From positions 1 to 34,457 of the forward strand of contig NZ_JAHSQD010000028.1 of assembly GCF_020103755.1 (NCBI RefSeq): a stretch of 34,457 nt of DNA, given 5' to 3'. The notes under the pieces are model-generated. The model made no database searches and was not told the DNA's origin. It worked only from the letters and a program-made list of their open reading frames with translations. Positions 7,703-30,142 of this stretch are shown here, in pieces (position 1 is the stretch's first letter; the number at the start of each line of letters is the position of its first letter). The DNA is from Streptomyces sp. LS1784. GTDB taxonomy: Bacteria; Actinomycetota; Actinomycetes; Streptomycetales; Streptomycetaceae. The position numbers were made by a program, and so were the translations under genes.

Positions 7703-10180
7703 CTAGGCGGCCCCGAAGGGCAGCTCCAGCTCGGCCCAGACCACCTTGCCGTCCCGGGTGAGCCGGGTGCCCCAGCGCTGGGCCAGCTCGCTGACCAGGA
7801 ACATGCCGCGCCCGCCCTCGTCCTGCTCGGCGAACGGGCGCAGCTGCGGGGTCTGGCCGCCGGCGTCGGAGACCTCCACGGTGAGCACCCGGTCGCGGAA
7901 CAGCCGCAGCCGGCGCGGCGCCTCCGCGTGCAGCAGGGCGTTCGTGACCAGCTCGCTGACCAGCAGCTCCGCGTAGTCGGTGAGCGCCGACAGGCCCCAG
8001 GCCTCCAGGGTGGCGCGGGTGAAGCGGCGGGCTCTGCCGGGCAGTCGTCCTCCGCCGGACAGCGGCAGGGTGGCGATCCGGTCGGCGGGCAGCGGCAGCA
8101 CCCGGGCCATGATCATCGCGATGTCGTCCTCGGTGCCGTCGGTGACCAGCGCCCCGAGGACGGCGTCGCAGCTCTCCTCCAGGGTCCGGCCGGGGCCGGC
8201 CAGGGTGCGGGCGAGCAGGTCGATCCCGGCGTCCAGGTCCTGGCCGCGCCGCTCGACCAGGCCGTCGGTGTAGAGCGCGACCATGCCGCCCTCGGGGATG
8301 GTGAACTCGATCGACTCGAAGGCCACCCCGCCGACGCCCAGCGGCACCCCGGGCGGCACCTCCACCCTGGCGGCGGTGCCGTCGGGGGCGACCCGGATCG
8401 GCGGCAGGTGCCCGGCCGAGGCGACCTGGACGGTGCGCTCCAGCGGGTCGTACACCGCGCAGATGCAGGTGGCGAACTGGCCCTCGCCGATACCGGAGGC
8501 GGTCTCGTCCAGTCGGGTGAGGACCTGCTCGGGCGGCATGTCGAGGGTGGCGAGGGTCCGGGCGACGGTGCGCAGCTGGCCCATCGTGGCGGCGGCCCGG
8601 ATGCCGTGGCCCATCACGTCGCCGACCACCAGGGCGACCCGCCCGCAGGACAGCGGCACCACGTCGAACCAGTCGCCGCCGACCTCGCTGACGACGCTGC
8701 TGGGCAGGTAGCGGTAGGCGATCTCCAGGCCGAGGGTGCGGTGCACCTCCTGCGGCAGCAGGCTGCGCTGGAGGGTGAGCGCGGTCTCCCGCTCGCGGCG
8801 GTAGAGCCGGGCGTTGTCGAGCGCCAGCGCGGTGCGGGCGACCAGTTCCTCGGCGAGGGCGACATCGGCGGCGGTGAACGGCTCGGGGTTGCGCATCCGG
8901 ATGAACTCCGAGCCGCCGAGCACCATGCCCCGGGCGGTGATCGGCACCATCAGGTACGAGTGGATGCCCGCCGCCATCCCGGGGGCCACCCGGTCCTCGC
9001 TGGAGACCAGTCCGCGCAGCACGTCCTCGTCCACGTGGGCGCGCAGCAGCGGCTTCCCGCTGCGCAGGCACTGGGTGTAGCTGCGGTCCGGGGTGTACTC
9101 GGAGGCCTCGCCGACCACGTCCACGGCGTGCGCGAGGCCGGTCTCGTAGGACTCACCGACGGCGACGGCGCGCAGCGTGACGTTCCGGTCGGAGGGGATC
9201 ACGGTGGGCTCGGCGCCGCGCAGCACCGGCTCCAGCAGGTCGACGGTGGCGAAGTCGGCGAACCTCGGGACGACGGCCTCGATCAGTTCCTCGGCGGTGC
9301 GCTGGAGGTCGAGGGTGGTGCCGATCCGGGCGGTCGCCTCGGCGATGGTGGCGAGCCTCTCCTGGGCACGGACGGCGCGGGCCTCGGCCTGGAATCGCTC
9401 GGTGACGTCGATGATCGAGGAACAGACCCCGAGGATCCGGCCGGTGGAGTCCGCCAGCCGGAAGTAGGAGGCGGACCAGGCGCGGTCCCGCTTGGGATCG
9501 CCGGGGACCCGGCCGTGCGAGCGGGCGTCCACCACGGGCTTGCCGGTCTTCAGCACCTGGCGCATGATCTGCTCGATCTCGGTGCTGTTGATGCCGGGCA
9601 GCACCGCGGATATCCGGCGGCCGAGGTGGGCGGCGACCGGCACCCCGTTCATCCGGGCCAGCGCCTCGTTGATCCGGATGTAGCGCAGCTCGGTGTCGTA
9701 GACGGCCATGCCGATCGGCGAGCGGCCGAAGATGCCGTCCAGTACCGCGAGGTCGGCCTCGACGGCGTGCAGGGCGCGGGTGTCGGAGGCGGTGGCGAGC
9801 AGCAGCAGGGTACCGGCCGGGCCGGCGATCGGGTAGGTGCGGAACTCCAGGTCGACCTTGTGGCCGTCGCGGTGGCGCACCGGGAAGACGCCGGACCATC
9901 CGCTGCTGCTCATGATCCGCTGGAAGAGGCCGAGCACCTCGGAGCGGTCGGACTCGTCGGTGAGCAGCTGGGCGGCGTAGCTGCCGACGGCCTCCTCGGC
10001 GGAATAGCCGAGCAGGGCCTCTGCGTCCTCGCTCCAGTGCAGGATCAGTCCGTCGTCCTGGAGCAGCGCCGTCGCGAGGGGGACGAGCCGGTGGCCTTCA
10101 GGGCGGGCGCCCTCGGGACGTGCCTCGGAATCGCCCGGTGCCGGGTCGGCGGCGGTCGCGTCCCACTCGTGTCCGTGCAT
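7703..10180 (-). CDS. PAS-PAS-GAF SpoIIE-type (PP2C) phosphatase with C-terminal HATPase
   Basis: The 825-residue cytosolic signalling protein has, in order: PAS at about 35-140 (LLGYSAEEAVG), PAS at about 145-262 (YDTELRYIRINEALARMNGV, ending IIDVTERFQAE), GAF at about 285-455, a short coiled linker (RRERETALTLQRSLLP), the PP2C/SpoIIE phosphatase at about 480-695, and an RsbW-like HATPase at about 712-822. Metal-binding Asp candidates are D503 (GGDWFD), D521 (GDVMGHG), D639 (YTDGLVE) and D685 (TEDDIA). The HATPase N-box is ELVTNALLH, with SDAGG and GRGMF as later ATP-lid motifs. Such proteins dephosphorylate anti-sigma antagonists and can phosphorylate them through the HATPase, linking redox, light or small-molecule sensing to alternative sigma factors. 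No partner STAS gene is adjacent, so its target is elsewhere. Confidence 0.93.
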   Translation of the reverse strand: MHGHEWDATAADPAPGDSEARPEGARPEGHRLVPLATALLQDDGLILHWSEDAEALLGYSAEEAVGSYAAQLLTDESDRSEVLGLFQRIMSSSGWSGVFPVRHRDGHKVDLEFRTYPIAGPAGTLLLLATASDTRALHAVEADLAVLDGIFGRSPIGMAVYDTELRYIRINEALARMNGVPVAAHLGRRISAVLPGINSTEIEQIMRQVLKTGKPVVDARSHGRVPGDPKRDRAWSASYFRLADSTGRILGVCSSIIDVTERFQAEARAVRAQERLATIAEATARIGTTLDLQRTAEELIEAVVPRFADFATVDLLEPVLRGAEPTVIPSDRNVTLRAVAVGESYETGLAHAVDVVGEASEYTPDRSYTQCLRSGKPLLRAHVDEDVLRGLVSSEDRVAPGMAAGIHSYLMVPITARGMVLGGSEFIRMRNPEPFTAADVALAEELVARTALALDNARLYRRERETALTLQRSLLPQEVHRTLGLEIAYRYLPSSVVSEVGGDWFDVVPLSCGRVALVVGDVMGHGIRAAATMGQLRTVARTLATLDMPPEQVLTRLDETASGIGEGQFATCICAVYDPLERTVQVASAGHLPPIRVAPDGTAARVEVPPGVPLGVGGVAFESIEFTIPEGGMVALYTDGLVERRGQDLDAGIDLLARTLAGPGRTLEESCDAVLGALVTDGTEDDIAMIMARVLPLPADRIATLPLSGGGRLPGRARRFTRATLEAWGLSALTDYAELLVSELVTNALLHAEAPRRLRLFRDRVLTVEVSDAGGQTPQLRPFAEQDEGGRGMFLVSELAQRWGTRLTRDGKVVWAELELPFGAA

Positions 10181-10328
10181 GATCAGGCAGCACCCCGGTT
10201 CGGCTCGTGCCCGGCCGGGTGGGCCTCGCGGTCCGTGCCGGCCGGGGTTCTTCTCCAGACTGCACGGACATCGGCCGCCCGGCGACCCCTTGGTCAGGGG
10301 GTGTCCGGCCGCTCCGGGTGTACGGGCG

Positions 10329-10949
10329 TCATGGGCGTACCGGCCGCAGCGTACTCTCCAGAACGGCCGCCCACTGCCGGATCACTCCGGAACGTCGGTT
10401 GCTGTCGTCGGTGAGCAGGTTGGCGAGGCCCAGTCCGCGGGCGAGGTCCAGCGTGGCCTGCACCGATTCGCGCACCCCGGGGCGGTTCTCGTCGGCGTCC
10501 AGGAACTCCACGGCGGCCCGGTGGGCCTCCCGTCCGACATGGCCCTCCAGGGCGATGATCCGCTCGCGCAGCGCCTCCTCGGTGGCGGCGGCGGTCCACA
10601 GGTGCAGGGCGGCGCGGAACAGCGGGCCGGTGTAGAGGCGCACGATCATGTCGACCACGGCCCGGGTGCGGTCCGGCCCGGCGGCCGGCAGCTCGCCCGC
10701 GTGGGCGCGGACGGCTGCCAGCCGCTCGGCGGTGACGTGTTCGACGGCCGCGGTGAAGAGGTCCTCGCGGGTCGGGAAGTGGTGCTGGGCCGCGCCCCGG
10801 GAGACCCCGGCCCGCTCGGCGACGACGGCGACGGTGGAGCCGTGCCAGCCGAGCTCGGCCAGGCAGTCCACGGCCGCCGCGAGCAGCCGGGCCCTGGTCG
10901 CTCGGCTGCGGTCCTGCTGCGGGGTGCGGGCGGAGGGGTGGCTGGTCAT
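10329..10949 (-). CDS. TetR-family regulator at the end of the acyl-CoA locus
   Basis: The 206-residue regulator has helix-turn-helix residues at about 38-69 (STVAVVAERAGVSRGAAQHHFPTREDLF). The C-terminal domain (LFRAALHLWTAAATEEALRERI...) resembles acyl-CoA-responsive and hydrophobe-responsive TetR proteins, though this does not identify the ligand. The ATG is at 10949. It is the last gene in the minus-strand direction after the ligase, separated by 114 nt that contain a 19-bp direct repeat, so it may have its own promoter. Its position makes it the natural candidate to bind the 34-bp dyad at 19536 upstream of the first gene of the locus. That is inference from context. The 148 nt between this stop and the phosphatase start hold no gene or clear terminator that I can see. 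Confidence 0.88.
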   Translation of the reverse strand: MTSHPSARTPQQDRSRATRARLLAAAVDCLAELGWHGSTVAVVAERAGVSRGAAQHHFPTREDLFTAAVEHVTAERLAAVRAHAGELPAAGPDRTRAVVDMIVRLYTGPLFRAALHLWTAAATEEALRERIIALEGHVGREAHRAAVEFLDADENRPGVRESVQATLDLARGLGLANLLTDDSNRRSGVIRQWAAVLESTLRPVRP

Positions 10950-10969
10950 GGCGGCGGGCGGTTCCTGTT

Positions 10970-11009
10970 CCGGTCGGGGCGCGGCGGGTCCCGGTCGGGG
11001 CGCGACGGG
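10970..11009. repeat. tandem 19-bp direct repeat upstream of the TetR gene
   Basis: CCGGTCGGGGCGCGGCGGG (10970-10988) recurs at 10991-11009 with one mismatch. The repeat unit is 21 bp, and the array begins 21 nt upstream of the TetR start. It may be a two-site binding region for expression of the regulator or a chance low-complexity duplication. Confidence 0.45.
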
Positions 11010-11063
11010 AAGATCCTCACAGACGGGCGCCGGTCTTCGGCCGCCGGGGTGGGCCCCGGCCGG

Positions 11064-12659
11064 TCAGCGAACGGCGGCGCGCCCGGCCTCGCGGGCACGC
11101 AGTTCACGGCGGAGGATCTTGCCGGCCGCGGACTTCGGGACGGCGTCCACGAACTCCACCGCGCGGACCTTCTTGTACGGGGCGACGTGTCCGGCGACGT
11201 ACCCGGTGACCTCTTCCGCGGTCAGGCCGCTGCCCGGGGCGCGGACCACGAAGGCCTTGGGGCACTCGGTTCCCTCGGCGTCCGGGACCCCGATCACGGC
11301 GGCGTCGGTGATCTGCGGGTGGCCGAGCAGGACGGCCTCCAGCTCCGCGGGGGCCACCTGGTAGCCCTTGTACTTGATCAGTTCCTTGACCCGGTCGACG
11401 ATGTGCAGGTAGCCGCGTTCGTCCACGAAGCCGACGTCGCCGGTGTGCAGCCAGCCCTCGGCGTCGACCACCGCCGCGGTCTCGGAGGGGCGGCCGAGGT
11501 AGCCCTTCATCACCTGCGGGCCGCGGATCAGCAGCTCGCCTCGCTCGCCGGGCCCGAGGTCGCCGTCGGAGCCGTCCAGGGCGGCGATCCGCAGCTCGGT
11601 GGAGGGGACCATCCGGCCGACCGAGCCGGGCGACGGGTCGCCCTCGCGCGGGGAGACGACGTGGGTGACCGGGGAGAGCTCGGTCATGCCGTAGCCCTGG
11701 AGCAGGTGTGGCAGGCCCAGGCGCCGGGCGCATGCGTCGGCGAGTTCGTGGTCCAGTGGGGCGGCGGCGCACAGCAGGTACTCGACGGAGGAGAGGTCGT
11801 ACTGCTCCACGATCGGGTGCCGGGCCAGCGCGAGGGCGATCGGCGGGGCGACCACCAGCGCCTGCACCCGGTGTTCCTGGACCGCACGGCAGAACTGCTC
11901 CAGGTCGAAGCGGGGCAGCACGACCACGGTGGCGCCGCAGCGCAGCGGCTGGTTGAGCAGCGCGGCCAGTCCGTAGATGTGGAAGAACGGCAGGACGGCG
12001 AGCACCCGTTCGCCCTCGGCGGGGCGGTAGAGGGCGTCGCACTGGGCGAGGTTGGTGGCGATCGAGCGGTGGGTGAGCATCACGCCCTTGGGCAGGCCGG
12101 TGGTGCCGCTGGAGTACGGCAGCACGGCGATGTCCTCTCCGGGGTCGATGGCGACCTCGGGGGCGGGACCGGTGGCGGCCAGCAGGTCGGTGATCGAGCG
12201 GTGGCCCTCGGCGCCGTCCAGGACGACGATCTCGGCCAGCGGGCGGCCCTGTTCGGTGAGCAGTTCGGCAGCCGCACGGGCGGTCGGCAGGAACGAGGAG
12301 ACGGTGACCAGCCAGCGGGCGCCGCTGTCGCGCAGCTGGCCGGCCAGATCGACGGGCGTGGCGAAGGAGGAGACCGTGGTGACGGTGGCGCCGGCCCTGG
12401 TCGCGCCGTAGTAGGCCATCGGGTAGGCGGTCGAGTTGGGGCTGAAGAGGGCGACGACGTCGCCGCGGCGCACGCCTGTCTCGGCCAGTCCTGCGGCCAC
12501 CCGCTCGACGGCGGCGGCGAGTTGGGCGTAGCTGATGGTCTCGCCGGTGAGGCCGTCGATCAGGGCGGGCCGGTCGCCGTGCCTCGCCGCGGCGCCGAGC
12601 ACCGCTTCATGGATCGGCAGGTCGACCACGGGGACGTCGGGGAACTCGCTTCGGAACAC
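11064..12659 (-). CDS. acyl-CoA synthetase / 4-coumarate-CoA ligase-like AMP-forming enzyme
   Basis: This is a 531-residue ANL-superfamily ligase. The GTG at 12659 with GGAGG 9 nt upstream is preferred over the ATG at 12698, because VFRSEFPDVPVVDLPIHEAV is the usual beginning of the 4CL-like branch. Motifs: P-loop YSSGTTGLPKG at 182-192, YGMTE at 323-327, HTGD at 405-408, hinge VDRVKELIKYKGYQVAP at 421-437, and catalytic Lys514 in PKSAAGKILRR. It would activate a carboxylic acid with ATP and CoA to acyl-CoA plus AMP and PPi. In this locus it would prime the substrate for the dehydrogenase and carboxylase. Despite the 4CL resemblance, the context argues for a branched aliphatic or terpenoid acid over a phenylpropanoid. 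A 371-nt gap separates it from the dehydrogenase, so it may be transcribed separately. Confidence 0.9.
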   Translation of the reverse strand: MFRSEFPDVPVVDLPIHEAVLGAAARHGDRPALIDGLTGETISYAQLAAAVERVAAGLAETGVRRGDVVALFSPNSTAYPMAYYGATRAGATVTTVSSFATPVDLAGQLRDSGARWLVTVSSFLPTARAAAELLTEQGRPLAEIVVLDGAEGHRSITDLLAATGPAPEVAIDPGEDIAVLPYSSGTTGLPKGVMLTHRSIATNLAQCDALYRPAEGERVLAVLPFFHIYGLAALLNQPLRCGATVVVLPRFDLEQFCRAVQEHRVQALVVAPPIALALARHPIVEQYDLSSVEYLLCAAAPLDHELADACARRLGLPHLLQGYGMTELSPVTHVVSPREGDPSPGSVGRMVPSTELRIAALDGSDGDLGPGERGELLIRGPQVMKGYLGRPSETAAVVDAEGWLHTGDVGFVDERGYLHIVDRVKELIKYKGYQVAPAELEAVLLGHPQITDAAVIGVPDAEGTECPKAFVVRAPGSGLTAEEVTGYVAGHVAPYKKVRAVEFVDAVPKSAAGKILRRELRAREAGRAAVR

Positions 12660-13030
12660 CAAGGTGAGCCTCCAGTAAGGAAGTTGACGCAGCAACAAAA
12701 CCGGTGCGCAATTCGGTGCGGGGCGCGTTCAGGAGCATACGGACAGTCAGGGGCCTGGCTCGTCCATTGTGGGGAACCGGGGGGTGGAGCATGCGTGGCG
12801 CGGTTGGTCCCGGAGGGCGCCTGACAGCACCGCGAAGCCCGGCGCACGGCGGTGCCCGCCGTGGACTCCGTCCGGGTGTTCCCGAAGCGGGACTCCCCGG
12901 ACGCGCCGGTCCACGGTGCCACCGGCCGCGCCGAGCCGCGGCCGGTCACCTGCGGCGGCAGGCTCGACCCGCCGCACCGGATGTCAGGACGGCACCGTGG
13001 CGTTCACTCACCCGAGTGCGGCTCGGTGAC
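12660..13030. other. 371-nt spacer between ligase and dehydrogenase
   Basis: No convincing gene is seen on either strand; short open frames here have no recognisable protein character. It holds the ligase ribosome site (GGAGG on the minus strand, 12669-12673) and a comparatively AT-rich stretch at about 12675-12710 that could carry a promoter, but no clear -35/-10 pair. A small CACTC/GAGTG inverted repeat lies near 13005-13020, just past the dehydrogenase stop, without a T-run. Confidence 0.55.
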
Positions 13031-14203
13031 TCAGTACGACTTGGGCAGGCCGAGGGTGTGCTGGGCCACGTAGTTGAGCACCATCTCGCGGCTGACCGGG
13101 GCGACCCGGCCGACCCGGGTGGCGGCCAGCAGCGCGCCCAGCCCGTACTCCTGGGTCAGGCCGTTGCCGCCGAGGGTCTGCACCGCCTGGTCGACCGTAC
13201 GGGCGGCGGCCTCGCCGGCGGCGTACTTGGCCATGTTGGCGGCCTCCCCGGCGGCGAGGTCCTCGCCCGCGTCGTAGAGCAGTCCGGCCTTCTGGGTCAT
13301 CAGCCGGGCCAGCTCGATCTCCACCGCGCACTGGGCGAGCGGGTGGGCCAGGCCCTGGTGGGCTCCGATCGGGGTGGACCAGACGGTGCGGGTCTTCGCG
13401 TACTCGACCGCCTTGCCGAGGGCCTGGCGGGCGAGGCCGAGCGAGAAGGCGGCGGTGAGGATGCGCTCGGGGTTGAGGCCGGCGAAGAGCTGGAGCAGGC
13501 CCGCGTTCTCGTCGCCGACCAGGGCGTCGGCGGGCAGCCGGACGTCGTCCAGGAAGACCTGGAACTGCTTCTCCGGGGCGACGATCTCCATCGGGATCGC
13601 CCGGTACTCGAAGCCGGGGGTCTCGCGCGGGACGACGAACAGGCAGGGCTTCAGCCTGCCGGTGCGAGCGTCCTCGGTGCGGGCCACGAACAGCACCGCG
13701 TCACAGTGGTCGATGCCGGAGACGAAGACCTTGCGGCCGGTCAGCACCCAGTCGTCGCCGTCCCGGCGGGCGACGGTGGAGATCCGGTGCGCGTTGGAAC
13801 CGGCGTCCGGTTCGGTGATGCCGAAGGCCATCTTGCGACTGCCGTCGGCCAGGCCGGGCAGCCAGCGGCGCTTCTGCTCCTCGGTGCCGTAGCGGGCGAT
13901 CACGGTGCCGCAGATCGCCGGGGAGACGATGAGCAGCAGCAGCGGGCAGCCGGCGGTGCCGAGTTCCTCCAGGACGATGGCGAGGTCGGTGATGCCGCCG
14001 CCCCCGCCGCCGTACTCGGCGGGCAGGTTGACGCCGAGGTAGCCGGCCTTGCCGGCCTCCGCCCACAGTTCCTCGGCGGGCTCGCCGGCCCGGGCCTTGG
14101 CGAGGTAGTAGGCGGAGCCGTAGCGGCGGCCGAGGTCGCCGACGGCCCGGCGCAGGGTCTGGCGTTCGGGGGTTTCCAGGAGCTGACTGCCGATGCTGGA
14201 CAT
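13031..14203 (-). CDS. acyl-CoA dehydrogenase, IVD/LCAD-type active site
   Basis: The 390-residue FAD enzyme would oxidise an acyl-CoA to the 2-enoyl-CoA and pass electrons to ETF. Visible features: PAEYGGGG (61-68), the substrate/FAD loop FGITEPDAGSNA (127-138), WVLTGRKVFVSG (152-163) and the C-terminal VQTLGGNGLTQEYG (341-354). The position of the MCAD catalytic Glu (YEGT) reads VAPV here, so that base is absent. Instead Glu246 in LNPERIL aligns with the LDLERL motif that supplies the base in isovaleryl-CoA and long-chain dehydrogenases. This points to branched or long substrates, as for citronellyl-CoA dehydrogenase. The gene starts 12 nt after the carboxylase alpha stop, so co-transcription is very likely. 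Confidence 0.92.
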   Translation of the reverse strand: MSSIGSQLLETPERQTLRRAVGDLGRRYGSAYYLAKARAGEPAEELWAEAGKAGYLGVNLPAEYGGGGGGITDLAIVLEELGTAGCPLLLLIVSPAICGTVIARYGTEEQKRRWLPGLADGSRKMAFGITEPDAGSNAHRISTVARRDGDDWVLTGRKVFVSGIDHCDAVLFVARTEDARTGRLKPCLFVVPRETPGFEYRAIPMEIVAPEKQFQVFLDDVRLPADALVGDENAGLLQLFAGLNPERILTAAFSLGLARQALGKAVEYAKTRTVWSTPIGAHQGLAHPLAQCAVEIELARLMTQKAGLLYDAGEDLAAGEAANMAKYAAGEAAARTVDQAVQTLGGNGLTQEYGLGALLAATRVGRVAPVSREMVLNYVAQHTLGLPKSY

Positions 14204-14215
14204 TCGGGTCCTTCC

Positions 14216-16153
14216 TCAGGCTTCGGTGGGCTGGACAACGGCCAGCAGGGTGCCGGTTTCGACCTGCCGGCCGGGGGTGGCGCGCAGTTCGACGAGGGTG
14301 CCGTCGGCCGGGGCGGCGACGCGGTGCTCCATCTTCATCGCCTCCAGCACCAGGAGCGGCTGGCCGGCGGTGACGGGGTCCCCGACGGCGGCGACGACCC
14401 GGACGACGGTGCCGGGCATCGGGGCGAGCAGCGCCCCGGGGTCGGTGCGGACGGTGGGGTCGGGGAAGCGCGGCAGGGCGGTGAGCGCGGTGCCGCCGGC
14501 CGGGGTGTCGACGTGCACCCGGTCGCCGTACCGCGCGACGCGATAGGTGCGCCGGAGCCCGTCCTCGGACAGCACGACCCGGTCCGGCGCCGCCTCGACG
14601 AGTTCGACCTCCGGGTGGTCCTCGGCCAGCAGGCCGCTGCGGGTGTGCCGGTAACGGACCGCCGACTCGGTGCCGTCCTCCGCCCGGTAGCGCTTGAGCT
14701 GCGGCTGGGAGGGCAGGTTGCGCCAGCCGGAGGGCAGGGCGCCGCGGCGGCCCGCGGCGTCGGCGAGGGCGGCGGCCAGCGCCGCGCGTTCGACGCCCTT
14801 GGTGTCCGGGGCGGTGAGTTCGGCCGTGTGCTCGGCCAGGAAGCCGGTGTGCAGGTCCGCGGCCAGGAAGGCCGGGTGGCGCAGCGCGCGGACCAGCAGC
14901 TCCCGGTTGGTGGCCGGACCGTGGATGCGGGCGCGGGCGAGCGCGTCGGCGAGCCGACGGGCGGCGGCGGCGCGGGTGGGCGCCCAGGCGATCACCTTGG
15001 CGAGCATCGCGTCGTAGTGCGGGGTGATCTCGCTGCCGGCTTCCACGCCGGAGTCCATCCGGAGCCCGGTGCCGGTGAACTCCTGGTACGGCAGCGTGAG
15101 TTCGAGCCGGTGCAGGGTACCGGTGGCGGGCTGCCAGTCCTTGGCCGGGTCCTCGGCGTAGAGCCGGGCCTCGATCGCGTGGCCGCGGGGGGCCGGGGGC
15201 TCGGCCGGCAACTGCGCGCCCTCGGCGACGGCGAGTTGCAGCGCCACCAGGTCCAGGCCGGTGACCGCCTCGGTGACCGGGTGTTCGACCTGGAGGCGGG
15301 TGTTCATCTCCAGGAAGAAGAACCGGCCGTCCTCGGCGAGCAGGAACTCGGCGGTGCCGGCGCCCGTGTAGCCGATCGCCCTGGCCGCGTCGCGGGCCGC
15401 CGCGTGCAGTTCGGCGCGGACCTCCGCCGGCAGGCCGGGGGCCGGGGCCTCCTCGATCACCTTCTGGTGCCGCCGTTGCAGCGAGCAGTCGCGGTCGCCG
15501 ACCGCCCAGACGGTGCCGTGGGCGTCGGCCAGCAGCTGGACCTCGACGTGCCGTCCGGCGGGCAGGTAGCGCTCGCAGAACACCTCGTCCGAGCCGAAGG
15601 CCTTGGCCGCCTCCGCGCGGGCGGCCGCCAGTTCGCCGGGGAGGTCCGCCAGGCTCCGGACGACGCGCATGCCGCGCCCGCCGCCGCCCGCCGCGGCCTT
15701 GACCAGCAGCGGCAGGTCCGCCTCGGTGGGCTCGGTGAGCGCGCCCAGCACCGGCACCCCGGCCTCGGCCATCAGCCGCTTGGCGGCGGTCTTGGAGCCC
15801 ATCGCGGCGATCGCGGCCGGCGGCGGGCCGACCCAGACCAGGCCCGCGTCCAGCACCGCCTGCGCGAAGTCGGCGCTCTCGGACAGGAACCCGTACCCGG
15901 GGTGGACGGCGTCGGCACCGGCGGCCAGCGCGGCCCGGACGATCAGGTCGGCGCGCAGGTAGGTGTCGGCGGGCGCGGCACCGGGCAGCCGGACGGCCGC
16001 GTCGGCCTCGCGCACGTGCGGGGCGCCGGCGTCCGGATCGGAGTGGACGGCGGTGGTCGCGACGCCGAGCTCCCGGCAGGTGCGGAAGACCCGGCGGGCG
16101 ATCTCGCCCCGGTTGGCGACCAGCAGGTTGGTGATCGAAGTCCTGGAAGTCAT
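14216..16153 (-). CDS. acyl-CoA carboxylase alpha subunit (biotin carboxylase + BCCP)
   Basis: The 645-residue protein has a biotin carboxylase N-terminus (NLLVANRGEIARRVFRTCRE), an ATP-grasp glycine loop (KAAAGGGGRGM), CERYLPAGRHVEVQLLAD, EMNTRLQVEHPVTE, a linker domain, and a C-terminal biotinyl domain with AMKMEH, Lys607 being the biotinylation site. It uses ATP and bicarbonate to carboxylate its own biotin. The length and single-chain BC-plus-BCCP layout fit MCC, geranyl-CoA or propionyl-CoA carboxylase alpha subunits and not the split acetyl-CoA carboxylase. The ATG at 16153 has GAGGGA about 8 nt upstream; a GTG at 16156 is an alternative. It follows the beta subunit by 11 nt. Confidence 0.93.
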   Translation of the reverse strand: MTSRTSITNLLVANRGEIARRVFRTCRELGVATTAVHSDPDAGAPHVREADAAVRLPGAAPADTYLRADLIVRAALAAGADAVHPGYGFLSESADFAQAVLDAGLVWVGPPPAAIAAMGSKTAAKRLMAEAGVPVLGALTEPTEADLPLLVKAAAGGGGRGMRVVRSLADLPGELAAARAEAAKAFGSDEVFCERYLPAGRHVEVQLLADAHGTVWAVGDRDCSLQRRHQKVIEEAPAPGLPAEVRAELHAAARDAARAIGYTGAGTAEFLLAEDGRFFFLEMNTRLQVEHPVTEAVTGLDLVALQLAVAEGAQLPAEPPAPRGHAIEARLYAEDPAKDWQPATGTLHRLELTLPYQEFTGTGLRMDSGVEAGSEITPHYDAMLAKVIAWAPTRAAAARRLADALARARIHGPATNRELLVRALRHPAFLAADLHTGFLAEHTAELTAPDTKGVERAALAAALADAAGRRGALPSGWRNLPSQPQLKRYRAEDGTESAVRYRHTRSGLLAEDHPEVELVEAAPDRVVLSEDGLRRTYRVARYGDRVHVDTPAGGTALTALPRFPDPTVRTDPGALLAPMPGTVVRVVAAVGDPVTAGQPLLVLEAMKMEHRVAAPADGTLVELRATPGRQVETGTLLAVVQPTEA

Positions 16154-16164
16154 CACGCGTTCCC

Positions 16165-17763
16165 TCACAGTCGGAAGACGCCGTAGCCACGCGCACCCTC
16201 GACCGGCGCGTTGTGGATCGCGGACAGACACAGGCCGAGCACCGTGCGGGTGTCGCGCGGGTCGATGACGCCGTCGTCGTAGAGCCGGCCGGAGAGGAAC
16301 ACCGGCAGCGACTCGGCCTCGATCTGCTGCTCGACCATCGCGCGGATCGCCGCGTCCGCGTCCTCGTCGTACGGCTGTCCCTTCGCCGCGGCGGACTGCC
16401 GGGCGACGATCGACAGCACCCCGGCGAGCTGTTGCGGGCCCATCACCGCGGACTTGGCGCTCGGCCAGGCGAACAGGAAGCGCGGCTCGAAGGCGCGGCC
16501 GCACATGCCGTAGTGGCCGGCCCCGTACGAGGCGCCCATCAGCACCGACAGGTGCGGGACGGTGGAGTTGGCGACCGCGTTGATCATCATCGCGCCGTGC
16601 TTGATGATGCCGCCCTGCTCGTAGTCCTTGCCGACCATGTAGCCGGTGGTGTTGTGCAGGAAGAGCAGCGGGGTGTTCCGCTGGTTCGCCAGCTGGATGA
16701 ACTGGGCGGCCTTCTGGGACTCCTGGCTGAACAGCACGCCCTGCGCGTTGGCCAGGATGCCGACCGGGTAGCCGTGGAGGCGGGCCCAGCCGGTGGCCAG
16801 GCTGGTGCCGTAGAGCGGCTTGAACTCGTCGAAGTCGGAGCCGTCGACGATCCGGGCGATCACCTCGCGCGGGTCGAAGGGCACCTTGAGGTCGCCGGGG
16901 ACGATGCCCAGCAGCTCCTCCTCGTCGTGCTTCGGCGGCTCGGCCAGCGGGTCCGGGTCGGGGCCGGGCTTGCGGTGGTCGAGCCGGGCGACGATCCGGC
17001 GGGCGATCCGCAGGGCGTCCGCCTCGTCCGTCGCCACGTGGTCGGCCAGGCCGGAGGTGCGGGCGTGCATCTCGGCGCCGCCGAGCGACTCGTCGTCGGC
17101 CTCCTCGCCGGTGGCCATCTTCACCAGCGGCGGGCCGCCGAGGAAGACCTTGGCCCGCTCCTTGACCAGTACGGTGTGGTCGGACATGCCGGGCACGTAG
17201 GCACCGCCGGCCGTCGAGTTGCCGAAGACCACGGCCACGGTGGGGATTCCGGCGGCGGAGAGCCGGGTGAGGTCGCGGAACAGGGCTCCGCCGGGGATGA
17301 AGATCTCCTTCTGGCTGGGCAGGTCGGCGCCGCCGGACTCGACCAGGTTCACCAGCGGGAGGCGGTTGCGCAGCGCGACCTCGTTGGCCCGCAGGGCCTT
17401 GCGCAGCGTCCAGGGGTTGCTGGCGCCGCCGCGCACGGTCGGGTCGTTCGCGGTGATCACGCACTCGACGCCCTCGATCACCCCGATGCCGGTGACCAGC
17501 GCGGCGCCGACCGGGTGGTCGCTGCCCCAGGCGGCCAGCGGGGACAGCTCCAGGAACGGCGAGTCCTGGTCGACCAGCAGCTCGATCCGTTCGCGGGCCG
17601 GCAGCTTGCCGCGCTTCCGGTGGCGTTCCAGGTACTTGGGGCCGCCTCCGGCCAGGGCCTTGGCGTGTTCGGCGTCCAGGTCGGCCAGCTTGGCGAGCAT
17701 CGCGGCGCGGTGCTCGGCGTACTCGGGCCCGGCCGGGTCGACGCGGGTGGGCAGGACGGTCAC
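16165..17763 (-). CDS. acyl-CoA carboxylase beta subunit (carboxyltransferase)
   Basis: The 532-residue carboxyltransferase carries both crotonase-like halves: RERIELLVDQDSPFLELSPLA and VVFGNSTAGGAYVPGMSDH in the N-half, and GILANAQGVLFSQESQKAAQFIQLANQRNTPLLFL (in parts) with GASYGAGHYGMCGRAF in the C-half. It transfers CO2 from biotin to an acyl-CoA. Length and motifs (LVESGGADLPSQ, MVGKDYEQGGIIKHGA) are of the methylcrotonyl/geranyl-CoA carboxylase type, whose substrates are 3-methyl-2-enoyl-CoAs. The GTG start at 17763 overlaps the AtuA stop (GTGA) and has GGAGG 7 nt upstream. Distinguishing 3-methylcrotonyl-CoA from geranyl-CoA needs active-site comparison; I cannot decide. Confidence 0.93.
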   Translation of the reverse strand: MTVLPTRVDPAGPEYAEHRAAMLAKLADLDAEHAKALAGGGPKYLERHRKRGKLPARERIELLVDQDSPFLELSPLAAWGSDHPVGAALVTGIGVIEGVECVITANDPTVRGGASNPWTLRKALRANEVALRNRLPLVNLVESGGADLPSQKEIFIPGGALFRDLTRLSAAGIPTVAVVFGNSTAGGAYVPGMSDHTVLVKERAKVFLGGPPLVKMATGEEADDESLGGAEMHARTSGLADHVATDEADALRIARRIVARLDHRKPGPDPDPLAEPPKHDEEELLGIVPGDLKVPFDPREVIARIVDGSDFDEFKPLYGTSLATGWARLHGYPVGILANAQGVLFSQESQKAAQFIQLANQRNTPLLFLHNTTGYMVGKDYEQGGIIKHGAMMINAVANSTVPHLSVLMGASYGAGHYGMCGRAFEPRFLFAWPSAKSAVMGPQQLAGVLSIVARQSAAAKGQPYDEDADAAIRAMVEQQIEAESLPVFLSGRLYDDGVIDPRDTRTVLGLCLSAIHNAPVEGARGYGVFRL

Positions 17764-19463
17764 AACAGGACCTCCGGAATGTCGAGGTGGCGGGCACGCA
17801 GCCACTCCCCGAGGGCCTTGGCCTGCGGGTCGAAGCGGTGCCGGGCGGCGACGCCCTCGCCGAGCAGGCCGGTGAGGGTGAAGTTGACCGCGCGCAGGTT
17901 CGGCAGCAGGTTCCGGGTGACGGGCAACTCTGCTGTCTCGGGGAGGAGTTCGCGCAGTCTTTCGACGGTGAGGGCGTGCGCCAGCCAGCGCCAGCCCTCC
18001 TCGGAGCGGGCCCAGACGCCGAGGTTGGCGTCCCCGCCCTTGTCCCCGCTGCGGGCGCCGGCCACCAGGCCGAGCGGGGCCCGCCGGGTGGGACCGGCCG
18101 GCAGCGGTTCGGGCAGCTCACCCTCCACCGGGTGGGCCTGGGCGGTGACGGGCGGCGGGGGTACGGCGATCCGGCGGCCGTCCGGCAGGACGGCGGTGTG
18201 CTCGACGGCCTTCGCATCGACGTGTGCGGCGCTGAACACCCCGTACGGAGCGCCCGGTCCGGGTGGGGCGGTGAGGTGGAAGCCCGGGTACCCGGCCAGC
18301 CCCAACTCGACGGCGGCCTTGCCGAGTTCGCGGCCGACCTTGGCCGGGTCCGGGTCGCGGGCGGACAGCCGGAGCAGGGCGGAGGCGGCCTCCTCGGTCG
18401 AGGCGTCCGGATGGTCGGTGCGGGCCAGTGTCCAGCGCAGTTCGGCGGGACGGGCGCCGGGCGGCAGGGCGGCGGCGAACTGCCGCCGCACCAGGGCGGC
18501 CTTGGCCTCGATGTCGAGGCCGGTGAGGATGAACACCACCTCGTTGAGGTGGCCGCCGAGCCGGTTGAGGCCCGCCTTCAGGGTGGGCGGCGGGGCCTCG
18601 CCGCGCACGCCGTCGATCCGGACCCGGTCCGGGCCCTCCTCGGTGAGCCGTACGGTGTCCAGCCGGGCCGTGACGTCCGGGCCGAGGTAGTGCGGTCCAC
18701 CGGTCTCGTACAGGAGTTGGGCGGTGACGGTGCCGGTGGTGACGGCGCCGCCGGTGCCCGGGTGCTTGGTGATCACGCTGGAGCCGTCGGCGTGCAGTTC
18801 GGCGAGCGGGAAGCCGGGGCGGGTCACGTCGTGCTCGCGGAAGAAGGCGTAGTTGCCGCCTGTCGCCTGGGCGCCGCACTCCAGGACGTGGCCGGCCACC
18901 ACGGCGCCGGCCAGGGCGTCCAGGTCCTCCGAGGTCCAGCCGAAATGGGCGATCCCGGGGCCGACGACCAGTGCCGCGTCCGTCACCCGGCCGGTCACCA
19001 CCACGTCGGCGCCGCCGGCCAGGCAGGCCGCGATGCCGAACCCGCCGAGGTAGGCGTTGGCGGCCAGCAGGCCCTCGGGCAGGCCCAGTTCGGCCCGGCG
19101 CGGAAGCAGGTCGTCGCCCTCGACGTGGGCGACGGCCGCCTCGACGCCGAGCCGCCGGGCCAGCACGCGCAGCTCCTCGGCGAGCCGGGCCGGGTTGAGG
19201 CCGCCCGCGTTGACCACGACCTTCACGTCGCGCTCGCGGGCCAGCCCGAGGCACTCCTCCATCTGGCGCAGGAAGGTCCGGGCGTAGCCGAGCGACGGAT
19301 CCTTCAGCCGGTCCCGGGCCAGGATCAGCATGGTCAGCTCGGCCAGGTAGTCCCCGGTGAGCACGTCCAGCGGCCCGCCGGTGAGCATCTCCCGCACCGC
19401 GGCGAAGCGGTCCCCGTAGAACCCCGAGGCGTTGCCGATCCGCAGTACCGCGCTGTCGCGCAC
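17760..19463 (-). CDS. AtuA-family (DUF1446) protein, first gene of the acyl-CoA operon
   Basis: The 567-residue cytosolic protein matches the acyclic terpene utilisation AtuA family. The N-terminal part opens with VLRIGNASGFYGDRFAAV, followed by LTGDYLAELTMLIL, VVNAGGLNP and ANAYLGGFGI. A smaller C-terminal domain contains ARSGDKGGDANLGVWAR, diagnostic of the family's ferredoxin-like fold domain. AtuA is encoded in the Pseudomonas citronellol/geraniol pathway, but its reaction is not firmly established. The GTG at 19463 is chosen, with GGGGAGG about 7 nt upstream; TTG at 19466 is an alternative. It overlaps the carboxylase beta gene by 4 nt, so translation is coupled. The dyad at 19536-19569 lies 73 nt upstream and probably controls the operon. 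Confidence 0.9.
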   Translation of the reverse strand: MRDSAVLRIGNASGFYGDRFAAVREMLTGGPLDVLTGDYLAELTMLILARDRLKDPSLGYARTFLRQMEECLGLARERDVKVVVNAGGLNPARLAEELRVLARRLGVEAAVAHVEGDDLLPRRAELGLPEGLLAANAYLGGFGIAACLAGGADVVVTGRVTDAALVVGPGIAHFGWTSEDLDALAGAVVAGHVLECGAQATGGNYAFFREHDVTRPGFPLAELHADGSSVITKHPGTGGAVTTGTVTAQLLYETGGPHYLGPDVTARLDTVRLTEEGPDRVRIDGVRGEAPPPTLKAGLNRLGGHLNEVVFILTGLDIEAKAALVRRQFAAALPPGARPAELRWTLARTDHPDASTEEAASALLRLSARDPDPAKVGRELGKAAVELGLAGYPGFHLTAPPGPGAPYGVFSAAHVDAKAVEHTAVLPDGRRIAVPPPPVTAQAHPVEGELPEPLPAGPTRRAPLGLVAGARSGDKGGDANLGVWARSEEGWRWLAHALTVERLRELLPETAELPVTRNLLPNLRAVNFTLTGLLGEGVAARHRFDPQAKALGEWLRARHLDIPEVLL

Positions 19464-19535
19464 CAATGCGCCTCCCCTGCCGGTGAGTTGGTTGCGCCCG
19501 GGCGGGCACCGCCGGGCAGCAGCGTGGCACCGCCC

Positions 19536-19569
19536 GGAGAAAAAAGCAATCACGCTTGCTTGTTTCTCC
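19536..19569. promoter_or_regulatory. 34-bp dyad, probable operator of the acyl-CoA operon
   Basis: GGAGAAAAAAGCAA (19536-19549), a 6-nt spacer, and TTGCTTGTTTCTCC (19556-19569) form a 14-bp inverted repeat with one mismatch. The inner arms AAGCAA / TTGCTT are perfect. The segment is strikingly AT-rich in its GC-rich setting and lies 73 nt upstream of the AtuA start. No gene ends nearby on either strand, so a terminator role is unlikely. TetR-family regulators of acyl-CoA catabolism use dyads of this kind; assignment to the TetR at 10329 is inference. Confidence 0.68.
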
Positions 19570-20045
19570 GAATCCGGCCCCACTCGCCCGACACGCGGAG
19601 GTGCCACCGGAAGTCCCGGTCGGCGGTTGGAAGCCGCAGTTCGCGGCACCCGGGCCACGAGGCTCCGGGGGCGGCATGTCGGGACCGGCAGCTGGACCGT
19701 GACTCTTCGAGCCGCGCGGATTCGCGAGCATCCCGACCGATGCGGTCCCGCGGCTGGGGACCTTCTGCGACCCGGTGGAGCCCGAGGCCCGCACCAACGT
19801 CGCCCCCCTTGCAGTCGCATGCTGCCCGCCCCCGCAATCCGTGCATCACTCACCGCTGTTGCGCCGTCACTCTGACGGGTGTTGCATGGCAGAGGCGAGG
19901 CGCCGGCGCGAGGGCCCACGGAAATGACGGAAACCGGGTACGGACGTCATGCGAATTGCGATTGCCGGCCGATTCACTGTGCCACGTTCACCGTGCCACG
20001 CGATCGGCGGCCCGCCGGTGTCGCCTCAGGCGAGGAGGTTCATCG
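19570..20045. other. gene-poor spacer before the Tat-exported hydrolase
   Basis: About 476 nt with no convincing gene. Composition falls below the local norm towards 19920-20000. GTGCCACG is directly repeated (19979-19986 and 19993-20000), and a short CGCCT/AGGCG inverted repeat sits just before the ribosome site of the next gene. No clear -35/-10 pair is visible. It may contain the promoter of the hydrolase and decayed sequence. Confidence 0.5.
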
Positions 20046-21101
20046 ATGGAAATGCCCGAGAGAATCACACACAGCCGTCGTAAATTCCTCGGCGCCGCTG
20101 CCGCGACCGCCGTGGCGGCCCAACTCGGCATGACTGGTGACGCGCAAGCGCGGTCCGAAATGGGAAGGCCTGAGGCATCTGCCGCGACTGGGCCGGGGCC
20201 CAGCGGATTCCTTGGCCCGGTGAAGCAGATCGATGCCGGCGATCTGAGCGTGGGATACGTCGAAGCCGGGCCCGCGGACGGACGGCCGGTCGTACTCCTG
20301 CACGGCTGGCCCTACGACATTCACAGCTATGTCGCGGTCACGCCCCTGCTCGCGGCGAAGGGGTACAGGGTGGTCGTCCCCTATCTGCGCGGCCACGGCA
20401 CCACGCGGTTCCTCTTGGGCGAAACGCCCAGAAAGGCCCAACAGTCGGCGTTTGCCCTCGACCTCATCGCCCTGATGGACGCCCTCGGGATCGACAGGGC
20501 CATCCTCGCCGGATATGACTGGGGATCACGGACCGCCGACATCGTAGCGGCCCTCTGGCCGGAGCGCTGCAAGGCGCTGATCTCCACGACCGGGTATCTG
20601 GTCGTCAACGTCGAGGCCAACAAGATGCCGACGCCACCGACGAGTGAATGGGCGTGGTGGTATCAGTACTACTTCGCCACCGACAGGGGCGTGCTCGGCC
20701 TTGAGAAGTACCGACGCGACCTGGCCAGGCTCGTATGGAAGTTCAACTCCCCGACCTGGACCTTCGACGATGCGACCTTCGATCGCACGGCCGCCGCGTT
20801 CGACAACCCGGACTACGTCGACATCGTGATCGACAACTACCGCTGGCGACTCGGCCTGGCCGAGGGTGATCCCCGGTACGACGCCTTCGAGAAACTCCTC
20901 GCCACAGCCCCTGTCATCCAGGTGCCGACGATCACCATCGACGGCGCGCACGATCCATTTACGCCTCCGGGAAATGGATCGGCTTATCGCAAGAAGTTCG
21001 TCGGCACATACGCGCACAAGACCCTGGAGGCAGGGCACAACGTTCCGCAGGAGGCTCCGAAGGCCTTCGCGGCGGCTGTCGTCGAAGTCGACGGCTTCTG
21101 A
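20046..21101 (+). CDS. Tat-exported alpha/beta hydrolase, epoxide hydrolase-like
   Basis: This 351-residue protein has a twin-arginine signal, HSRRKFLGAAAATAVAAQ (residues 9-26), and probable cleavage after the Ala-rich stretch near residue 36. The alpha/beta hydrolase fold follows: oxyanion HGWP at 86-89, nucleophile Asp158 in GYDWGS, acid Asp303 in DGAHDPF and base His331 in AGHNVPQ. Asp as nucleophile is characteristic of epoxide hydrolases and haloalkane or fluoroacetate dehalogenases. Cap-region aromatics (WAWWYQYYF, 203-210) could position substrate. The ATG at 20046 has GAGGAGG 7 nt upstream. Codon use is less GC-biased than its neighbours (a 60-nt block at 20941 is about 57% GC), a sign of possible transfer. 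Whether it hydrolyses an epoxide or a halide cannot be decided here. Confidence 0.87.
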   Translation: MEMPERITHSRRKFLGAAAATAVAAQLGMTGDAQARSEMGRPEASAATGPGPSGFLGPVKQIDAGDLSVGYVEAGPADGRPVVLLHGWPYDIHSYVAVTPLLAAKGYRVVVPYLRGHGTTRFLLGETPRKAQQSAFALDLIALMDALGIDRAILAGYDWGSRTADIVAALWPERCKALISTTGYLVVNVEANKMPTPPTSEWAWWYQYYFATDRGVLGLEKYRRDLARLVWKFNSPTWTFDDATFDRTAAAFDNPDYVDIVIDNYRWRLGLAEGDPRYDAFEKLLATAPVIQVPTITIDGAHDPFTPPGNGSAYRKKFVGTYAHKTLEAGHNVPQEAPKAFAAAVVEVDGF

Positions 21102-21678
21102 CCACGCTCCTGAACTTCGGAGAGTTGCATGATGGCCCGATGAACGGCAGGGAGCGGTATCCACGCGAGCACGCGTCCCTGGAGCACGCCCTCGCCATGA
21201 CCGGCTGCACCACGACCAGGGACATCGTCCTGGCTGAAGTCGCCGGCCGGTCGGCTGGTGGTTAGCCTGAAGACAGAATGGCGGATGAGGCGCCGCGGCG
21301 AAATCGGTGGCGTCTCGACACGCGGCGCTCCTGCGAGCGGTCGGGCAACCGGCGCCGCGCCGTCCTGACAAACCTTCACACTGCTGAACTCACGCTGCGC
21401 CGGGCGTGAGCCGGTGGCTGCGTTTGCGCGTGCCGGCCGACCGAGTTCGCGCTTCGGGCTTACCGACGGCGATTTCGGCCCGTCGGCCAGCAGCGGCGGC
21501 AACGCCGACTGTCCGGCGACGCTCGGAACCCAACATCCGCTTGATGGCCCTTGACGGCCTGAGGGAATTCGTCCCCGCCACGACGGATCGACCTGCGAGC
21601 GGCTTGGCACGGGAGCGTTCGTGCCCCCTCGGTCATCCCGGTCGGAGATGAGACGGCATTCCCGTGGAGGAGGATCTC
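21102..21678. other. 577-nt spacer with a doubtful 41-codon frame
   Basis: The spacer is gene-poor and lower in GC. A 41-codon frame runs 21140-21265 (MNGRERYPREHASLEHALAM...), with no recognised family and no good ribosome site. It might be a remnant. The rest to 21660 shows no convincing coding on either strand. The last 15 nt carry the GGAGGAGGA ribosome site of the malic enzyme. No insertion-sequence ends are seen. Confidence 0.45.
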
Positions 21679-23352
21679 ATGCCCGAGAGCCACGCACGGA
21701 CCCCCGCTGTCCCCAGCATCCTGGTGGATCCGCTGCGCAACCGCGGCGTCGCCTTCACACAGCAGGAGCGGGAGGCCCTCGGCCTCACCGGACGGCTGCC
21801 CTCCGGAGTGCTCGCGCTCGAGCGGCAGGCTCAACGTGCCTACCGGCAGTTGCAGGCCCAGGGGAGCGACCTGGCCAAGAACGTCTACCTGGAACAGCTG
21901 CACGACCGCAACGAAACCCTCTACTTCAAGCTCCTCACCGAGCACCTCGAAGAGCTGCTGCCGATCGTCTACGACCCCGTCGTGGGTGAGGCGATCGAGA
22001 AGTACTCCCACGAGTACCGGCGCCCGCGCGGCATCTTCCTGTCCATCGACCGGCCCGACGACATGCAGAGGGCCTTCGCCACGCTTCAACTCGGACCGCG
22101 GGACGTCGACCTGATCGTGTGCACCGACGCGGAGGAGATCCTGGGCATCGGTGACTGGGGCGTGGGAGGCGTCCTGATCTCGGTCGGCAAGCTCGCCGTG
22201 TACACGGCGGCCGCCGGCATCGACCCGCGCCGCGTCGTTCCCGTGTCGCTGGATGTCGGTACGGACCGGGCATCGTTGCTGGAGGACCCGCTGTATCTGG
22301 GCAACCGACACCCCCGTGTCCGCGGCGCCGACTACGACGCGTTCATCGAGAAGTACCTGGAGACGGCATCGTCCGCGTTCCCCGGTGCTCTCCTGCACTT
22401 CGAGGACTTCGGTCCCAGCAACGCACGGCGGATCCTGGAGCAGTACGGCGGCCGCTATCGGATCTTCAACGACGACATGCAGGGCACCGGAGCCATCACG
22501 CTGGCCGCAGCGCTGTCCGCGGTCAAGGTCACCGGTGTGCGGATGCGGGACCAGAAGCTGGTCGTCTTCGGCGCCGGGACCGCCGGGGTGGGCATCGCGG
22601 ACCAGCTACGCGACGCGATGGTCCGCGACGGCGCGGATCCGGAGCGGGCCACCGCCCAGGTGTGGCTGATCGACAGGCAAGGGCTGCTCACCCGGGACAT
22701 GACCGACCTGCGCGACTTCCAGCAGACCTACGCCCGCGATCCGGCCGAGGTCGCGGACTGGGGGCGGCACGACGGCGCGATCCCGCTCCTGGAAACGGTC
22801 CGGCGGGTCAACCCGACGATCCTGCTGGGCACTTCCACCGTGCACGGTGCTTTCACGCGCGAGGTCGTCGAGGCCATGTCCGAGGGTACCGAGCGGCCGG
22901 TCATCTTCCCGATCTCCAACCCCACCTCCCGGATCGAGGCCATGCCCGCCGACGTCATCGCCTGGTCCAGGGGCAAGGCGCTCGTCGCAACCGGCATCCC
23001 CGTCCCGCCCGTGGAACACGACGGTGTGACCTACCGGATCGGGCAGGCCAACAACGCGCTGCTCTACCCGGGACTCGGCCTGGGCACGATCGTCTCCGGC
23101 GCGTCCCAGGTGACCGCGGCCATGCTGCTCGCGGCCGCGCAGGCGGTCGCGGACCAGGTCGACCCGTCGGGGCCGGGCGCCTCCCTGCTGCCTCCCGTGA
23201 AGAACCTCCGGGAGTCCTCGGCGATCACCGCGACCGCGGTGGTCCAGGCGGCGCTCGACGACGGCGTGGCCACCTGCAAGCCGACCGACGCCGGAAAGGC
23301 CGTCCGGGAGGCCATGTGGGAGCCGGTCTACGCTGACGGAGCGACGTCATGA
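21679..23352 (+). CDS. NAD-type malic enzyme (oxaloacetate-decarboxylating)
   Basis: The 557-residue enzyme would convert malate to pyruvate plus CO2 with NAD(P) reduction. Length matches the large MaeA/SfcA type, not the short MaeB-core type. Tyr98 ([10 protein letters not shown]) is the general acid and Lys171 ([16 protein letters not shown]) the base. Metal ligands are in FEDFG (Glu241, Asp242) and FNDDMQGTG (Asp265/266). The dinucleotide motif [13 protein letters not shown] (296-308) and the C-terminal [11 protein letters not shown] are present. The start is the ATG at 21679, because the GTG at 21664 is part of the strong GGAGGAGGA ribosome site. Its stop overlaps the fumarase start (ATGA), so the two are one translationally coupled unit. 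NAD preference is inferred from family type. Confidence 0.94.
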
Positions 23353-27675: not shown

Positions 27676-27766
27676 GGGTTCGAGCACACCGACGGCGGCC
27701 GTGGGGCGGGCCTGCCCGACCCCGCCCACCCCGAAGACCGCCGAGAGCCAGGGAGCGAAGAGAACG

Positions 27767-30142
<2,376 letters not shown>

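Follow-up and report, generated by a model that had tools for sequence, protein, structure and literature searches.

A conserved AtuA and carboxylase operon in Streptomyces sp. LS1784 and a proposed route for acids with a 3-methyl branch

Introduction

The gamma-carboxylation route has been described mainly from Pseudomonas, in which the atuABCDEFGH cluster combines AtuA with a carboxylase pair of the geranyl-coenzyme A (CoA) carboxylase (GCC) type, an acyl-CoA dehydrogenase (ACAD), an acyl-CoA ligase and a dedicated regulator (PMC4847356, PMC4097962; papers are cited here by PMC number, each for the portions of its text considered). We describe an actinobacterial counterpart that seems to form a coherent unit and carries a conserved palindrome. 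It is a row of six genes on contig NZ_JAHSQD010000028.1 of Streptomyces sp. LS1784 (assembly GCF_020103755.1), encoding AtuA, a carboxyl transferase (CT), a biotin carboxylase (BC), an ACAD, an acyl-CoA ligase and a TetR-family regulator. The window, i.e., the whole stretch of DNA that was analysed, is this entire contig of 34,457 nucleotides (C496; the genome totals 9.56 Mb in 1294 contigs, with an estimated contamination of 4.07). Compared to the Pseudomonas system, it has no hydratase gene in the locus (one lies on contig C405), and its six genes include neither an alcohol nor an aldehyde dehydrogenase. The window AtuA is 35% identical to pseudomonadotal relatives (loci L062 and L065), which were used in place of Pseudomonas AtuA itself.

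Two other systems are close. The M. tuberculosis operon Rv0971c-Rv0976c includes echA7, fadE12, accA2, accD2 and fadE13, and is upregulated 20-300 fold under hypoxia and in stationary phase (PMC9283954); the substrate segment of AccD2-AccA2 is reported to be unlike that of 3-methylcrotonyl-CoA carboxylase (MCC), and its role has been called an open question (PMC4347857). ThnQ and ThnS have been called AtuA-like lyases, with reference to unpublished results, and are described as opening a tertiary alcohol next to the carboxylated carbon of an acyl-CoA to give 3-oxoazeloyl-CoA; this likeness is to a two-gene naphthalene-pathway system of an anaerobe with a cyclic substrate, known from a review that cites an unpublished assay (PMC12016498). 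Among the loci compared here, two from Mycobacterium (L159, L177) and one from Nocardia (L162) have the order AtuA-ACAD2-CT-BC-ACAD-EchA, and the window carboxylase is 76-77% identical to theirs. The Mycobacterium loci share the reported order of Rv0971c-Rv0976c, the comparison being made through these other mycobacterial loci, and Rv0976c, which we take to be the AtuA homolog, fits this order. Unlike the mycobacterial form, that of the window has a ligase but neither a second dehydrogenase nor a linked hydratase.

We propose that the locus serves beta-decarboxymethylation as an operon under TetR control, through which a 3-methyl group that blocks beta-oxidation would be removed as acetate from acids larger than isovalerate. 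The route, most of which the six genes appear to cover, would comprise five steps: (i) the ligase would form the acyl-CoA; (ii) the dehydrogenase would convert it to a 3-methyl-2-enoyl-CoA; (iii) the GCC-type biotin carboxylase would carboxylate the methyl group, yielding a 3-alkylglutaconyl-CoA; (iv) an enoyl-CoA hydratase, encoded on C405 here and in the operon in Streptomyces, would add water to give a tertiary 3-hydroxy-3-alkylglutaryl-CoA; and (v) AtuA, a lyase domain fused to a small partner, would carry out a retro-aldol split that yields acetate and a 3-oxoacyl-CoA, the latter to be finished by general beta-oxidation. We consider the pathway class, i.e., gamma-carboxylation of 3-methyl-branched acyl-CoAs larger than methylcrotonyl-CoA followed by the release of acetate, to be probable; the full claim, with AtuA as the lyase and the substrate specified, is finely balanced.

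Results

The carboxylase was compared to a published signature. In MCC beta chains, Phe191 is directly preceded by a three-residue insertion, whereas GCC beta chains have Gly and no insertion (PMC4673880); the MCC Phe has been placed in the motif RQDEVFPDREHFGRIF (PMC4347857). The window CT has no three-residue insertion, carries Gly at the site of MCC Phe191 and GCC Gly162, and aligns without gaps to the GCC structure 5ikl; it is from this ungapped alignment that a particular Gly of 5ikl is taken to be Gly162. The DREHF-type MCC motif with Phe191 is absent from the window CT, which has IPGG, and the leucine-type carboxylase on contig C367 of the same genome has DRDHF, the MCC form. Both GCC features were found in 77/77 AtuA-linked carboxylases of the named loci defined below (three of the 80 loci had no long enough CT match and were left out of this count). 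By this signature the window carboxylase is of the GCC type, with the corresponding activity predicted. A sequence-only reading of this DNA had suggested an active-site comparison with solved MCC and GCC structures, and its suggestion of a possible branched or terpenoid acid pathway, as distinct from the leucine one, is supported by this signature and by the separate leucine-type cluster with its own lyase described below. A propionyl- or acetyl-CoA carboxylase is unlikely: true chains of the propionyl-CoA carboxylase (PCC) type score at most 265 bits, versus 574 for MCC. It should be noted that 9tps, a chain named PCC beta, scores 554 bits and has a substrate segment of the MCC form (KEHF).

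At the position of the isovaleryl-CoA dehydrogenase base, the ACAD carries Glu in 73/73 aligned operon enzymes including that of the window, and the five printed operon ACADs lack the medium-chain-type Glu. The Glu hints weakly at a 3-branched substrate.

The genome has a single PF07287 match at E <= 0.001, AtuA, which reaches E 7.9e-148 and 493 bits against a cut-off of 22.8, with the AtuA_ferredoxin domain PF23544 at its C-terminus; the latter is a separate gene adjoining AtuA in Mycetohabitans and Paraburkholderia, and part of one chain in the window. The protein does not belong to the 3-hydroxy-3-methylglutaryl-CoA (HMG-CoA) lyase sequence family, since Pfam gives the two AtuA domains only and no NCBIfam model matched; a phmmer search of the PDB with the single sequence returned no match up to E 1. 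A structure model of AtuA built from 41 sequences (predicted local distance difference test, pLDDT, 85.7; predicted template modelling score, pTM, 0.85) has one strong match in the PDB, the citramalate lyase 9evf (Foldseek E 3.6e-17). The structural alignment covers 393 residues (Z 27.9, root-mean-square deviation 3.6, model residues 3-429), and the next best match, at Z 9.6, covers one subdomain. A profile of ten AtuA proteins also finds the 9evf chain (E 1.4e-6), and R159, D162, G191, E195, C196, Y252, E253 and K296 (window numbering) are common to AtuA and CmlA in the profile alignment. The matched chain is named in the PDB as "AtuA family protein" and "citramalate lyase, subunit A (cmlA)" (9erq/9evf), and the title of 9evf describes citramalate lyase with ADP and pyruvate.

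Citramalate lyase splits a tertiary 3-hydroxy acid into acetate and pyruvate. The bond broken there is of the type that the final step of the proposed route has to cleave. CmlA (9erq, 9evf), known here from PDB titles and names, shares its fold with AtuA residues 3-429, acts on a free C5 acid and is deposited as subunit A; the window AtuA differs in its fused small domain, and its expected substrate is a CoA ester. The structure model makes AtuA itself the best candidate for the lyase of the route, and we propose that it may act as a 3-hydroxy-3-alkylglutaryl-CoA:acetate lyase. The sequence-only reading, which regarded an HMG-CoA-type lyase as missing, was correct in that Pfam finds no HMG-CoA-lyase domain among the six proteins; a lyase as such is probably present in AtuA.

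Searches of open-licence PMC papers found no functional study of an actinobacterial AtuA and no paper on an AtuA-type citramalate lyase; the relevant portions of PMC12390289, PMC4535907, PMC3511530 and PMC7358434 are expression, antigen, reference-list or annotation notes that give no enzyme function. A second AtuA, about 53-55% identical, is present in two Catenulispora-like genomes (L049, 9573-11318; L051, 9245-10990) with no carboxylase match nearby, which suggests that some AtuA proteins have other substrates.

To place the locus among its relatives, one genome per species was scanned, and the best 80 of 531 confirmed AtuA relatives were used as named loci; they come from Streptomyces, Kitasatospora, Amycolatopsis, Nocardia, Rhodococcus, Mycobacterium and Catenulispora. 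Gene order was taken from tblastn matches because gene calling misses genes, and many of these loci are close relatives, so that the following counts are not independent events. The order TIGR03084-AtuA-CT-BC-ACAD-ligase-EchA-TetR was found in 45 loci, and five others resemble it without a ligase match. Nine loci have TIGR03084-AtuA-ACAD2-CT-BC-ACAD-TetR, with a 32-37% identical EchA upstream on the other strand, and ACAD2 together with a downstream EchA occurs in groups of 4, 3, 2 and 1 loci. The exact window order is present in two (L105, L137), and the remaining nine are shorter lists, several on short contigs. Set beside these layouts, the window form thus resembles the Streptomyces one without its TIGR03084 gene and hydratase. 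A Rhodococcus plasmid, pDK3, carries in one annotated run the carboxylase pair, hydratase, TIGR03084 protein, AtuA, dehydrogenase, ligase and TetR. The window itself has AtuA, CT, BC and ACAD in order, TetR nearby and the shared palindrome upstream, as expected for an actinobacterial operon of this kind, and the recurrence of the same gene order in relatives argues against chance. The row of AtuA, MCC/GCC-like carboxylase pair, ACAD, ligase and TetR seen by the sequence-only reading is borne out by strong Pfam family matches for all six genes, as is the likeness in gene content to the Pseudomonas atu and liu clusters that it pointed out. The locus is a genuine and coherent pathway locus, of a type that is widespread.

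The TIGR03084 (mycothiol-dependent-isomerase-like) gene is a frequent partner upstream of AtuA in Streptomyces, Amycolatopsis and Rhodococcus (for example, L106, L138, and L063 at 8183-9004). In one locus of the genus, L043, a gene with an MDMPI domain lies between ACAD and ligase (16806-17585).

The pattern CAAGCNNGCNTGNTTG was derived by comparing stretches upstream of AtuA in several loci. It is exact in 14 of 15 upstream regions of the genus type, window included, and has one mismatch in the other; three of the seven regions taken from other families (L050, L052-L056, L064) have the exact site and four have none. Within 250 bases of the first operon gene, the exact palindrome occurs in 72 of the best 80 loci and a copy with at most one mismatch in 74, compared to 0/80 for the reversed-pattern control, and no exact copy was found elsewhere in the 1.43 Mb of these loci. 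The six loci without it are Streptomyces L115 and L148, on short contigs, and four Mycobacterium loci, which differ in this respect from the window. Among the genomes of the genus, the exact site stands at the operon in 35 of the 38 with the AtuA-type carboxylase (not in G003, G026 and G035), and no exact site was found anywhere in the three that lack AtuA. Of the 42 distinct exact sites in the genus, seven are found away from the operon, including one on C411 of the window genome. We infer that the neighbouring TetR binds the palindrome, which is thus a putative operator. A different palindrome, AACCTACCGGTTGGTT, stands about 36-39 bases ahead of the matched start of AtuA in the mycobacterial-type loci L177 and L055, which lack the common one.

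The hydratase was sought with the operon enzyme of L053, from another family of the order. In the window genome this query matches C405:5664-6422 at 69% identity (E 1e-100); the next match is at 37% (E 1.5e-26). Searched back against 10 genomes, the C405 protein gave exactly one match at E <= 1e-40 in each: the AtuA-operon hydratase in seven (five Streptomyces, one Nocardia and Mycobacterium celatum), and a gene outside the operon in the L105 genome, the L137 genome and one Amycolatopsis. The C405 gene is an apparent ortholog of the Streptomyces operonic hydratase, an assignment based on best-match relations because no tree was built; it is present in 40/41 genomes of the genus. A hydratase remnant in the window was rejected, as no EchA match below E 0.4 was found in 10000-21600. 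The hydratase that the sequence-only reading called missing is thus indeed lacking from this region, and its suggestion that one might be borrowed fails for an unrelated enzyme, given the apparent orthology, although the C405 gene is not dedicated to the operon (see Discussion).

In the leucine-type cluster on C367, genes for a biotin carboxylase, an HMG-CoA lyase (376 bits against a cut-off of 246) and a dehydrogenase come after that for an MCC-type carboxylase. In the 41 genomes of the genus, the leucine-type carboxylase was found in 40 and the AtuA-type one (>= 86% identity) in 38. The latter is absent exactly from G010, G027 and G031, in which the leucine-type one remains; these are exactly the three without AtuA among 37 of the genomes, the other four being outside that set.

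The features of the locus are collected in Table 1. All six genes lie on the minus strand. The AtuA start was corrected to about 19463, from 19569, and CT, starting at 17763, overlaps the AtuA stop by 4 bases. The gaps are 11 bases (CT-BC), 12 (BC-ACAD), 371 (ACAD-ligase) and 114 (ligase-TetR). The Carboxyl_trans match of CT has E 7.8e-144, and the BC chain includes a biotinyl domain.

Table 1. Genes and putative operator of the AtuA locus in the window
Feature	Positions	Strand	Families and remarks
AtuA-family protein, about 567 aa	17760..19463	-	PF07287 and fused PF23544; exact start codon uncertain
Carboxyl transferase (beta) subunit, 532 aa	16165..17763	-	PF01039; GCC type by published signature
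Biotin carboxylase-biotin carrier (alpha) subunit, 645 aa	14216..16153	-	PF00289, PF02786, PF02785, PF21139 BT_MCC_alpha, PF00364
Acyl-CoA dehydrogenase, 390 aa	13031..14203	-	PF02771, PF02770, PF00441; Glu at isovaleryl-CoA-dehydrogenase-type position
AMP-forming acyl-CoA ligase, 531 aa	11064..12659	-	PF00501, PF13193
TetR-family regulator, 206 aa	10329..10949	-	PF00440 (TetR_N); at operon end in many relatives
Palindromic operator-like site CAAGCAAGCGTGATTG, pattern CAAGCNNGCNTGNTTG	19547..19562	-	Upstream of AtuA, conserved

Several neighbouring genes were also noted. A PAS-GAF-SpoIIE phosphatase with a HATPase domain (7703-10180) adjoins the TetR end, as it does in the genus loci L039, L040, L041 and L048. 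At 21679-24827, a malic enzyme gene is immediately succeeded by a Lyase_1/FumaraseC_C (fumarase-type) gene, the start of the latter meeting the end of the former. An ABC-ATPase protein with a zinc-finger-type (DnaJ_CXXCXGXG) match, read as UvrA-like, is encoded at 27662-30139.

Discussion

A number of observations weigh against the proposed route. Every reaction in it, and the substrate class, are predictions. The nearest solved carboxylase by overall score is an MCC (3u9r), GCC 5ikl ranking sixth, so that "GCC-type" refers to the pocket and not to a proven activity; the Gly pocket would leave room for a larger acyl chain, and does not say which chain; and, outside the 77 carboxylases counted, a more distant one from a Rhodococcus plasmid (L063), 63% identical, lacks the insertion and has Ala, not Gly, at the site. 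AtuA and the solved citramalate lyase are only 17% identical over the structural alignment, and this, together with the ADP in 9evf, means that the AtuA mechanism may need a nucleotide or may differ. The C405 hydratase is kept in the AtuA-less G010, G027 and G031, so that joint loss of hydratase and AtuA is not seen, and no copy of the palindrome within 2 mismatches was found on C405. Three-mismatch sites do occur there, one about 300 bases upstream; among 32 hydratase loci scanned, five have a 2-mismatch site and none a better one. Membership of the C405 gene in the same regulon is not supported, and it is probably put to a second use here.

The lyase step is the most contested. The literature disagrees on it for Pseudomonas: the acetate-lyase step has been assigned to AtuA (PMC4847356) and to LiuE, an HMG-CoA lyase (PMC4097962). 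A rival explanation, which we consider unlikely, accordingly keeps the same carboxylation and lets an HMG-CoA lyase do the cleavage, as listed for LiuE, with AtuA carrying out some other reaction, for example CoA transfer, hydrolysis or hydration. The window genome does encode an HMG-CoA lyase, on C367. We also surveyed 296 sampled genomes of the class (AtuA at E <= 1e-100, HMG-CoA lyase at E <= 1e-60), a first look that scored only some candidates per genome. AtuA was found in 148 genomes, HMG-CoA lyase in 203, both in 129, and AtuA alone in 19. HMG-CoA lyase is thus present in most AtuA genomes (129/148 versus 74/148 of the others; odds ratio 6.8, uncorrected for relatedness), which favors this rival and counts against AtuA as the lyase. 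Conversely, the 19 AtuA-only genomes speak for AtuA. In 12 of 15 loci from 14 of these genomes, AtuA lies near both carboxylase genes; in L198 and L201 it is on the other strand from them, and the L198 AtuA is only 37% identical. A laxer search of 11 of the 19, for HMG-CoA lyase only, put none above the cut-off of 246 bits: four give matches at 192-197 bits that could be divergent HMG-CoA lyases; in the other seven nothing exceeds 50.5 bits, and all seven carry AtuA near the carboxylase pair. The match of the AtuA fold to a C-C lyase also stands against this rival.

Another alternative, in our view quite unlikely, is that the same enzymology serves a cyclic or otherwise bulky acid instead of an acyclic terpene acid, with AtuA acting like ThnQS. 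It gains from the cyclohexyl substrate of ThnQS (PMC12016498), from a pocket that indicates only a larger chain and from the AtuA relatives without a nearby carboxylase; it loses in that the set of ligase, dehydrogenase and gamma-carboxylase parallels Atu, while the part of the thn gene table considered contains no biotin carboxylase (PMC12016498).

That the locus is a second leucine/isovalerate pathway with hydratase and lyase encoded elsewhere, a possibility the sequence-only reading had raised against itself, is very unlikely: the window CT is 53% identical to the C367 leucine-type one and has MCC as its best PDB match, but the C367 cluster is separate and its carboxylase nearly universal in the genus, the substrate-site signature differs, and in M. 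smegmatis deletion of the related accD2-accA2 had no effect on isovalerate growth, whereas deletion of accD1-accA1 did (PMC4347857).

With beta-decarboxymethylation as the preferred explanation, the evidence leaves it evenly poised whether the AtuA family are C-C lyases unlike the HMG-CoA lyase family, possibly nucleotide-dependent, that cleave tertiary 3-hydroxy acids, and whether the fused AtuA completes actinobacterial beta-decarboxymethylation of 3-methyl-branched, isoprenoid-type acids. The description of this pathway as under-described holds for its function; AtuA as such is common (half of the sampled genomes of the class), and the mycobacterial operon has a literature.

Both the assignment of AtuA as a lyase and the putative TetR operator lend themselves to testing. 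If the proposal is true, the orphan mycobacterial AccA2-AccD2 complex gains a pathway, and the AccD2-AccA2 operon a substrate class that is specific and can be falsified. Operons of this kind occur commonly among actinomycetes, mycobacteria included, and the route would let soil actinomycetes strip the methyl branch from larger, terpene-like acids.

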